NCBI GenBank assembly: GCA_028819215.1
Contig: JAPPMG010000040.1
Location: 1 to 64,000, forward strand
Direction of reading: 5' to 3'
Origin: Bryobacterales bacterium
GTDB lineage: Bacteria > Acidobacteriota > Terriglobia > Bryobacterales > UBA6623
Length of the DNA: 64,000 bases
The position numbers were made by a program, and so were the translations under genes. Positions 13,635 to 20,276 of the stretch are shown in pieces. The notes under the pieces are model-generated. The model searched no databases. It worked only from the letters and a program-made list of their open reading frames with translations, and had not been told where the DNA came from. How positions within the stretch are numbered: the stretch's first letter is position 1; every line of letters starts with the position of its first letter.

Positions 13635-15017
13635 ATGATGAACCGCCGGGCGTTCCTCGCCTCTGCCGCAGCTGCCGCCGGTTCGGCGTGCGTCGGCCCG
13701 CGCCTGCCTCGGCCCAACGTCTTGGTGCTGATGCCCGACCAGTGGCGGGCGATGGACCTCGGCGCGATGGGCAACCCGGACGTGCGGACGCCCAACATGG
13801 ACGCCCTCGCCGCGAATGGCGCTCTGCTGAGGAACATGACCGCGAATTGCCCGGTCTGCTGCCCTGCGCGCGGCACGTTGCTGACTGGGCGATTCGGTCA
13901 CGAGCACGGCGTGGATGTCAACGACGCGCCGCTGCCCGATAGCGAAGTCACGATCGCCGAGGTCGCGCGGGACAACGGCTACCGCACCGCCTTCGCCGGC
14001 AAGTGGCACTTGGAGGGCGGCAAGCGGCTGCCCGGCTATGTCCGGCCCGAGCGACGCCAGGGGTTCGACTTCTGGGCTGCCAACATCTGCACTCACAACT
14101 ACTGGAACATGCAGTATTTCCGGGACTCCCCGGAGCCGATCCAGATCGAGGGCTACTCGGCCACGGCGTTCACGGACGAGATCATCGATTTCATCGGCAG
14201 CGATACCGAGACGCCGTTCTTGGCCTACGTCCAGTGGGGGCCGCCGCACAACCCCTACGTTGCACCGCCGGCGTACATGAACATGTACGACCCGAACTTG
14301 CTCAAGATGCGGGAGAACTGGAACGGATCCGTCCAGGTGCGCGCTGGCCGCGCGCTGGGCTCGCGGCAGGACATCGCCGGCTACTATGCTGCGATCACGT
14401 TCCTCGATGACGAGGTCGGGCGAATCGTCGACGCGCTCAAGGCGACGGGCCAGTTCGAGAACACCGTCATCTTGATCACGTCGGACCACGGCGACATGCT
14501 GGGTTCCCAAGGCACCGTGCTCAAGCGCAAGCCGTGGGCCGAATCGCTGCAGGTGCCCGGAATCGTGCACTATCCGGCAGCGGTTCCGGCGGGCCAGCGG
14601 CTGAATCTACCCGCGTCTCACGTCGATGTGGTGCCGACACTGCTGGGCCTGGCCGGACTGCCCATGGCCGAGACCATCTCGGGCACGGACCTGTCGCGCC
14701 ACCTGTTGGCCCAGGAGCACGGCGGGCGCCCGGACTCTCCCGCTCCCGAGTCCGTTTACGCCCAGAGCTACACACCGACCGAACGGGGCGAGTTCCCGGC
14801 TTGGCGCGGCGTGCGCACCGAGCGCTACACCTATGCCCGGAATCAAGACCGGGCCTGGTTGCTGTACGACAACGTATCCGATCCGTTCCAACTGCAGAAT
14901 CTAGCGGACAGGCCCGAGCATGCCGCCGTGCAGGCGGAGCTGGATGAATTCACGATGGATTGGTTCGCTCGCACCGAGGATGACTGGCGCGAGCGCGCCG
15001 ACCTGCCATATCGCTAG
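13635..15017 (+). CDS. Exported sulfatase (arylsulfatase type)
   Basis: A 460-residue sulfatase. It opens with a twin-Arg leader MMNRRAFLASAAAAAG ending near a possible lipobox (GSAC), so it is exported and possibly a lipoprotein. The formylglycine motif is Cys75-Cys-Pro-Ala-Arg79; the metal site includes MPDQW near 34 and the late LITSDHGDMLG. Family members hydrolyse sulfate esters of carbohydrates or phenols after a separate enzyme converts the Cys to formylglycine. No such maturase is seen in the window. It stands alone on the plus strand after cysS, convergent with the DUF2203 gene. Confidence 0.9.
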   Translation: MMNRRAFLASAAAAAGSACVGPRLPRPNVLVLMPDQWRAMDLGAMGNPDVRTPNMDALAANGALLRNMTANCPVCCPARGTLLTGRFGHEHGVDVNDAPLPDSEVTIAEVARDNGYRTAFAGKWHLEGGKRLPGYVRPERRQGFDFWAANICTHNYWNMQYFRDSPEPIQIEGYSATAFTDEIIDFIGSDTETPFLAYVQWGPPHNPYVAPPAYMNMYDPNLLKMRENWNGSVQVRAGRALGSRQDIAGYYAAITFLDDEVGRIVDALKATGQFENTVILITSDHGDMLGSQGTVLKRKPWAESLQVPGIVHYPAAVPAGQRLNLPASHVDVVPTLLGLAGLPMAETISGTDLSRHLLAQEHGGRPDSPAPESVYAQSYTPTERGEFPAWRGVRTERYTYARNQDRAWLLYDNVSDPFQLQNLADRPEHAAVQAELDEFTMDWFARTEDDWRERADLPYR

Positions 15018-18301: not shown

Positions 18302-18766
18302 TCAGATCTCCTCAATCTCCGCGCTGGTTTCGATGTCGATCGATCCCTTGACGCTCATCGCGGCCGGGCACTTCACCTGGTGGGTGTCCAGCGCGCGCTG
18401 GGCGCGGTCGCGAGTGCCGGCCGGGATCTTCAGGCGGTAATGCACGCGGATCCGCGTGATGCGCATGACACCGTCGACGTTTTCGATGTCTCCCTCGATA
18501 TCGCTCTGCACGCGATCGGGATGGTTCGGAATCTTACGGACTGCCAGGGCCCCTGACAGAGTGCCGGTCAGTCAACCGCCCACCGCCGCGACCATATGGT
18601 CGAGCGTGGCCGGAAGATCGCGCCGCGGCTCCATGCCGTAGAAGTGCTTGATCCCCCCGTGAACGCCGAATTCCAGCGGCTCTTCAAAGCCTTCGATGTA
18701 GGCGCGGCGCTCGGGCGGCTGATCTTGGTGGATGCGGATCTTGGAAGTGTGGATGAGATCGCCCAT
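18302..18766 (-). CDS. OsmC-like selenoprotein (in-frame UGA at the redox cysteine)
   Basis: Translation from ATG 18766 gives GDLIHTSKIRIHQDQ and runs 64 residues to AAVGG, meets TGA (18572-18574), then continues in the same frame as LTGTLSGALAVRK to a second stop at 18302. Reading TGA as selenocysteine gives a 154-residue protein of normal OsmC length. Sec65 falls exactly where OsmC/Ohr proteins have the reactive Cys (usual pattern A.G.CLTGTL). The second Cys is kept at 133 (HQVKCPAAMSVKG). Both halves are clearly OsmC. A hairpin with bacterial SECIS geometry begins 12 nt after UGA. OsmC proteins reduce organic peroxides with thiols. The alternative is a nonsense-mutated pseudogene, but Cys-to-UGA at this very site plus the hairpin argues against it. 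Confidence 0.88.
18541..18559 (-). promoter_or_regulatory. Bacterial SECIS element
   Basis: In the mRNA the 8-nt arm CUGUCAGG pairs completely (one G-U) with CCUGGCAG around the loop GGC. The loop begins 21 nt after the UGA codon and its first base is G. A UGA-to-loop distance of roughly 16-37 nt and a G early in the apical loop are the known traits of bacterial SECIS hairpins bound by SelB. The hairpin lies inside the coding sequence, as it must in bacteria. Confidence 0.8.
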
Positions 18767-18806
18767 GCGCACATTGTAGCCGCACAGCGGCAGCCGGCCC
18801 GGCCGG

Positions 18807-20276
18807 CTACCGGACAGCCTTGGCGCGCGCCTCGCGCCAGGCCTCGGTGTCGGCAATGTTGCGCCTGAGGATCTCGCCTTGCTCGCCCTTCTGCCCCCTG
18901 AGATAGACATCCATGTCCGAGCCGTAGCGCGCTGCGTCTTCGAATTCTTGGCCGTGGTCGCCGGTTTGCGCGATCCACTCCTTCAAGATGGAGCGCAGCT
19001 CGGCCAAGGTCGCGGCGTGCGAGGCGTCGCCGGCCAGATTGCGCATCTCCCAGGGATCCTCCCGCAGGTCGTAGAGCTCCTCCTCGGGTCGCTCGCCGTA
19101 GAACATCGCTTCGATCTCCGGCTCCAGTGCCCCGTCTGCCCGCAACTTGTGCAGAGCCTGGATCACCGCCTTGCCGTCCTTGTAGCGGTTGGGCTGCAGG
19201 TGCGGGCGCTCCGGCACGAAGTTTCTGATATAGCGGAAGCGCTCCGTGCGCACGCTGCGAATGCGGTCGACCGTCTCGTCGCAGCGGTCCCTAGCTGAAA
19301 CAACGTACTCGCGCGGCTCGGCATGCGGGCCGAACAGGGGCCGCCCTTCCATCCAGCCGGGGACATCGAGTCCGGCGAACGCCAGCGACGATGCGGCTAC
19401 GTCGATGTGAGCCACCAAGTCTTCCCGCACCAGTCCGGGCTCGATGCGGTCCGGCGCCCGCACCACCAGCGGCACGCGCGTGCCCTCCTCGCTCAGGAAC
19501 TGCTTGCCGCGGGCGTGGCTCACCCCGTGATCGGTGAGGAAGAACACGACGGTGTTGTCAGCCACTCCCTCCCGCTCGAGTCTCTCCAGTATCTCGCCGA
19601 CCTCCCAGTCCACGTGCTCGATCGACTCCAGGTATTGCGCCCAGTCCTTGCGGATCTGCGGGTGGTCCGGGTAGTAGGGCGGCAGTTTGACCTTCTTGGG
19701 GTCAACGCCGTTGGTCTGCACTGCCTTGAGAGGCTCCAGCGTGCGCTGGTTGCGACGCTTGCCGCCGCGTAGCTGGACCTGGGCGAAGAACGGCTGTCCG
19801 CCCGCGCGGCCGGCCCAGTCCGCGCCGTCATAGAGATCGGCGGCGAATTCGAAGTTGTAGTCCGTCTTGCCCTTGGAGAGCTTCCCGTCATCGCCGTAGC
19901 GGCCGTTGGTGACGTAGTAGCCCGCCCGGCGCATGACCGCCGGGACTGGTTCGACGTCGCCAGGGAGCCTGATCTTGAGTTCTCCCCTTCCACTGCGGTG
20001 ATTGTGCGCGCCGATTGTCGTCTGGTACATCCCTGTGATCAGGGCTGATCGCGACGGAGAGCAGACCGGTGCGGTCACGAACGCGCGCGTGAACTTCGCG
20101 CCTTCCAGCGCCATCCGGTCGATATTGGGCGTCTTGGCGAGAGAAGCTTGGAACGGCCCGTAGTGGTCGGACTGGTCCTCGGAGAAGATCCACACGATGT
20201 TGGGCCGCTCCGATGCGGTTTGGGCCGCTGTCGGAAGGGCCGTCGCGATTACAAGCAGGCAGAGCGGGAGGCGCAT
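18807..20276 (-). CDS. Secreted sulfatase
   Basis: A 489-residue sulfatase with a Sec signal peptide (1-19, LPTAAQ). The active-site motif is Cys72-Ser-Pro-Ser-Arg76 (APVCSPSRSALITG), to be converted to formylglycine. Metal ligands appear in FSEDQSDH and FFLTDHGVSHARGKQ. The C-terminal part ends with the usual ELYDLREDPWEMRNLAGD. It resembles heparan-N-sulfatase-like and choline-sulfatase-like bacterial enzymes. It lies 40 bp upstream of the OsmC gene on the same strand. Confidence 0.9.
   Translation of the reverse strand: MRLPLCLLVIATALPTAAQTASERPNIVWIFSEDQSDHYGPFQASLAKTPNIDRMALEGAKFTRAFVTAPVCSPSRSALITGMYQTTIGAHNHRSGRGELKIRLPGDVEPVPAVMRRAGYYVTNGRYGDDGKLSKGKTDYNFEFAADLYDGADWAGRAGGQPFFAQVQLRGGKRRNQRTLEPLKAVQTNGVDPKKVKLPPYYPDHPQIRKDWAQYLESIEHVDWEVGEILERLEREGVADNTVVFFLTDHGVSHARGKQFLSEEGTRVPLVVRAPDRIEPGLVREDLVAHIDVAASSLAFAGLDVPGWMEGRPLFGPHAEPREYVVSARDRCDETVDRIRSVRTERFRYIRNFVPERPHLQPNRYKDGKAVIQALHKLRADGALEPEIEAMFYGERPEEELYDLREDPWEMRNLAGDASHAATLAELRSILKEWIAQTGDHGQEFEDAARYGSDMDVYLRGQKGEQGEILRRNIADTEAWREARAKAVR

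Follow-up and report, generated by a model that had tools for sequence, protein, structure and literature searches.

A putative selenocysteine protein of the OsmC/Ohr fold from Bryobacterales, in a UxxGT subfamily with no cysteine form among the members sampled

The 64,000-nucleotide window analyzed here (positions 1 to 64,000 of contig JAPPMG010000040.1, Bryobacterales bacterium, assembly GCA_028819215.1) holds an OsmC-like gene, hereafter the Sec-OsmC gene, with an in-frame TGA where related proteins have their reactive cysteine. With a probability of roughly 0.9, and on the strength of sequence comparison, we read it as a functional selenoprotein of the OsmC/Ohr fold, in a subfamily that carries only selenocysteine (Sec) as far as it has been sampled. 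An earlier note on this DNA located the gene correctly at 18302-18766, omitting that it lies on the minus strand. Three features anchor the reading:

18302-18766, minus strand: Sec-OsmC gene, ATG at 18766, stop TGA at 18304-18302, 154 amino acids when translated with TGA as Sec
18572-18574, minus strand: in-frame TGA at codon 65 (Sec), where OsmC/Ohr proteins have their peroxidatic Cys
18368-18370, minus strand: Cys133, the predicted resolving Cys, in a CP motif, at the position of the second OsmC Cys

The TGA at codon 65 is the only internal one, and the gene's own terminator is also TGA. The Pfam OsmC profile (PF02566) matches the protein on both sides of this codon (residues 55-147, E 5e-11), scoring 43.3 bits against a gathering threshold of 27.5, which bears out the earlier proposal that a single TGA joins both halves of an OsmC protein in one frame. 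In alignments with solved OsmC/Ohr proteins, codon 65 falls on the first Cys and Cys133 on the second, and a profile comparison with Cys-containing OsmC proteins agrees on both redox positions; the note had likewise placed the TGA at the conserved reactive Cys, with the second Cys retained. Identity to the solved proteins is low (9-19%). An AlphaFold2 model (predicted local distance difference test, 96.2; predicted template modeling score, 0.88) adopts a predicted OsmC/Ohr fold, with OsmC/Ohr chains at the top of both structure-match lists. The best VIA Z score was 15.3 for 2onf (Ta0195), followed by YhfA (1ml8, 14.0) and Escherichia coli OsmC (1nye, 13.7). The nearest structures, 2onf and YhfA, are Cys proteins without a known substrate that share 10-14% identity with the window protein.

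The 14 relatives recovered from genome_contigs, the most distant at about 42% identity, all have TGA at codon 65 and no other premature stop. Wider searches used a family profile in which Cys stood in for Sec, which would have given Cys forms the highest scores. They recovered 32 members spanning codon 65 in 396 Acidobacteriota genomes, 143 in 298 genomes from the phylum of bacterium HR33 (which we take to be Gemmatimonadota) and 7 in 47 genomes from the phylum of a Candidatus Eisenbacteria genome. Every one of these 182 members, from 741 genomes of three phyla, carries exactly one TGA; the figure is a hand count of table rows, apparently without the 10 further genome_contigs relatives (L009-L017 and L019), which also have TGA and bring the Sec members to about 190. 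No member with Cys at codon 65 was found among the 182 and these 10 relatives. A pseudogene or a sequencing error would be easy to invoke, TGA being one base away from the Cys codons TGC and TGT. We consider that explanation refuted: chance or decay is excluded because relatives keep the TGA at the same codon without other premature stops, in about 190 members from three phyla, and the sequence downstream of the TGA is under purifying selection, with synonymous sites frozen. The scattered stops among close relatives that the earlier note had named as telling against its idea are likewise not seen.

Searches of the HR33 and Eisenbacteria phyla also returned seven stop-free matches. Five, with weak E-values, are ordinary OsmC proteins that fall outside the Sec clade in the tree, and two are end fragments short of codon 65, so they do not count as Cys members; a third stop-free fragment, from genome G077 of the Acidobacteriota search, does not span codon 65 either. 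No relatives were found among viral contigs and plasmids. About half of the HR33-phylum carriers hold two copies of the gene, both with TGA (for example, G397:C1:1051660-1052112 and 1442097-1442552); duplicates of the gene have stayed Sec.

The genome is equipped to decode Sec. In the assembly to which the window belongs (98.98% complete, 1.71% contamination), we found a tRNA-Sec with anticodon UCA (71 bits), selA (410 bits), selB (377 bits) and selD (299 bits), all above cut-off. The earlier note had reasoned that the gene implies SelA/B/C/D and had let its case depend on selB and tRNA-Sec; the genome supplies the full set. The selB gene also accompanies the Sec-OsmC gene across genomes, in 28 of 32 carriers versus 226 of 364 noncarriers among Acidobacteriota (Fisher P = 0.0035), in 87 of 90 carriers versus 132 of 208 noncarriers in the HR33 phylum (P = 6e-11), and overall in 115 of 122 carriers versus 358 of 572 others in the two phyla. 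These tests treat genomes as independent and ignore kinship, and the HR33-phylum selB genes were counted at E ≤ 1e-66, with 1 of 219 below the curated cut-off. Sec decoding is widespread in the two phyla, with selB above cut-off in 254 of 396 Acidobacteriota and 218 of 298 HR33-phylum genomes. In the order to which the window belongs, two genomes (G187 and G289) have neither selB nor a Sec-OsmC gene. Two selB matches (G404:C12:4327-6222 and G685:C295:11182-12264) each contain one in-frame TAG, which may reflect a sequencing error, decay or readthrough.

TGA also serves as the ordinary stop of other genes in the region and ends the Sec-OsmC gene itself, so a Sec reading must depend on context. 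The same usage speaks against a variant code or a suppressor that would insert Trp or some other standard amino acid at TGA, as do the presence of tRNA-Sec, selA, selB and selD, the co-occurrence of selB with the gene and the hairpin after the codon. We found no support for such a reading in our data and rate it as highly improbable.

That context is probably provided by a hairpin resembling the Sec insertion sequence (SECIS) of bacteria, found in the minimum free energy fold of the sequence after the UGA:

18541-18559, minus strand: SECIS-like hairpin CUGUCAGG-GGC-CCUGGCAG

Its apical loop, GGC, lies 20 nucleotides after the UGA. The ten sense codons following the TGA show no synonymous change across six divergent Bryobacterales genes (79-100% identical to the window gene in nucleotide sequence); elsewhere in those genes, 77 of 95 codons for invariant residues (Met and Trp excluded) do. 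The rest of the family keeps a homologous hairpin of the form GGCGCNC-UGGNN-GNGCGYC, about two codons further downstream, and a UGG-type loop replaces GGC in most other clades. In 34 relatives of these clades, 98% of cells are paired and 16 cells have changed on both sides. None of 500 shuffles reached the observed pairing or covariation score, although related sequences beat such shuffles more easily than chance would; sliding the hairpin partner by 1-3 columns lowers pairing to 8-67%. Published bacterial SECIS elements carry a G in the apical loop (PMC1088965), and the Sec-OsmC gene has both this apical G and a hairpin just after the UGA. Two pairs of loci outside the window clade (L056/L057 and L074/L086) have a hairpin that is likewise shifted upstream, with G still in the loop; the position of the SECIS has therefore probably moved more than once in the family. 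Conserved UGA, hairpin and Sec genes jointly argue for the note's central claim of an OsmC-like selenoprotein with Sec at the catalytic Cys.

The open-access literature that we searched describes one OsmC-like selenoprotein family, characterized by a UxxT motif and known from Sargasso Sea and Global Ocean Sampling (GOS) surveys (PMC1088965, PMC2398784); no second family is described there, and the deep-Sep paper is silent on OsmC. The earlier note presented the window gene as a genomic example of proteins known mainly from marine surveys, and here only part of its claim stands: the gene is a genomic Sec-OsmC, and the marine protein (UxxT, NF041052) belongs to a different subfamily. Both have the OsmC fold, with Sec replacing the peroxidatic Cys, and a downstream SECIS hairpin. 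In the marine family, however, Cys homologues are the commoner form, with 161 Cys versus 5 Sec sequences in GOS, whereas the family described here has no Cys members among those found, and every aligned member shows U-[LM]-x-G-T (UxxGT) in place of the published motif. That the gene is a plain member of the published family would fit the shared Pfam family, the Sec at the equivalent Cys and a weak match to NF041052 (OsmC_like_Se). This match amounts to 16.4 bits for the window protein and 28.4 bits for the best of five other members tested, far under the cut-off of 95; the osmotically inducible OsmC model (TIGR03562) is missed as well (24.1 bits, cut-off 85.8). Maximum-likelihood analysis places the family's 30 Sec rows together on one side of a branch supported at 99/99. 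A genuine NF041052 Sec gene (L123, G377:C43:18752-19195; 169.6 bits; FULLTQL, in which ULLT is the published UxxT) sits beside Cys proteins, apart from that clade. Its genome, an acidobacteriotal one, carries both kinds, since it also holds a UxxGT member (L047, C20:153300-153758). We therefore judge membership in the published family very unlikely. By sequence and phylogeny, the Sec-OsmC gene belongs to an unnamed second OsmC selenoprotein subfamily, with no Cys form as far as sampled. Since the NF041052 Sec gene groups with Cys proteins elsewhere in the tree, the phylogeny indicates that Sec has replaced Cys at least twice in the OsmC fold.

What the protein does is predicted from fold and conserved residues, which make a peroxidase role reasonably likely. 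Ohr and OsmC work by a two-step peroxidase cycle with one attacking and one resolving residue. OsmC of E. coli (1nye) and Thermus thermophilus (1ukk), covered by TIGR03562, shares with the window protein the fold, the two redox positions and a second Cys in CP, but it has Cys in place of Sec and an NPE Glu that the window protein lacks. Ohr (6ebg, 1n2f and 4noz; 11-18% identity) shares the fold and both positions and is the source of the candidate mechanism and reductant; it is a Cys form, and its catalytic Glu is not conserved in the window family. Arg20, His36, Asp56, Sec65, Gly68, Thr69 and Cys133 are invariant in a 21-row alignment, Cys133 in both family alignments (A1 and A2). Arg20 is invariant by alignment and is a candidate match in space to the catalytic Arg. 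The most likely function is accordingly a predicted hydroperoxide reductase that cycles Sec65 with Cys133. SelB with Sec-tRNA(UCA) would bind the hairpin and insert Sec at the peroxidatic position. The Sec65 selenolate would then attack the hydroperoxide, probably aided by invariant Arg20 and Asp56, and Cys133 would resolve the selenenic acid, giving a selenenyl sulfide that would be reduced again by a dithiol (a dihydrolipoyl protein or thioredoxin).

Several observations weigh against parts of this picture. The NPE Glu that precedes the Cys of OsmC/Ohr by ten residues is not conserved and is replaced by Leu, Ile or Val, and invariant Asp56 lies one residue after the Glu position; because that Glu is absent and an Asp follows one residue later, the peroxidase chemistry may differ from that of OsmC/Ohr. 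Neither the window nor 20 further loci (9-14 kb) revealed a shared partner gene hinting at substrate or reductant. The window hairpin sits further 5' than that of most of the family, and its fold including the UGA is just mildly more stable than shuffles (z = -1.34). Seven of the 122 carrier genomes (G055, G080, G277, G317, G518, G556 and G608) lack a full selB, and their assemblies may be incomplete. The gene could also be a genuine selenoprotein that is no hydroperoxide reductase and that instead performs selenenyl-sulfide or thiol-disulfide exchange or detoxifies another electrophile. The UxxGT motif, the loss of the OsmC/Ohr Glu, the invariance of His36 and Asp56 and the 9-19% identity to solved proteins would all suit such a role, as would the failure to find a Cys version, which might be expected of a reaction dependent on Sec. 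Against it, the protein retains the two redox positions of the fold, whose characterized members mostly reduce peroxides, and we regard the alternative as less likely.

A stronger proposal, which we hold tentatively and at somewhat under even odds, is that this OsmC subfamily is obligately Sec, that is, it arose once, spread to at least three phyla, was duplicated as Sec, never turned to Cys and catalyzes a reaction impossible with Cys. If true, this would be a naturally occurring example of redox chemistry that depends on selenium. The Sec-only subfamily also lends itself to a natural test of why Sec persists. Lineages that lose Sec decoding would be expected to lose the gene rather than convert it to Cys. 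The Sec-only status is limited to the subfamily, the wider OsmC family being full of Cys proteins. Sec-OsmC adds a selenium-dependent candidate antioxidant enzyme to Acidobacteriota, and its members would tend to be annotated as broken OsmC genes.

The region upstream of the gene and its neighborhood contain three further features:

18773-18778, minus strand: TACAAT, a -10-like box that ends 6 nucleotides before the ATG
18807-20276, minus strand: sulfatase gene, 40 bases upstream of the Sec-OsmC gene, kept in most close relatives
13635-15017, plus strand: sulfatase gene near the Sec-OsmC gene

A consensus scan found neither a full sigma-70 promoter nor a terminator. Of 10 Bryobacterales loci (the window and L009-L017), 8 have TACAAT at this position within diverged surrounding DNA, and the other two have TACGAT or TACCAT one base further upstream. 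The Bryobacterales loci have no Shine-Dalgarno sequence, and many other clades have a GGAGG-like site. This pattern in the sequence suggests that the Sec-OsmC transcript of Bryobacterales is leaderless. In close Bryobacterales only, rapZ is kept downstream of the gene, and a sulfatase lies upstream in most of them; we considered this order as a functional link and take it instead as shared by descent.
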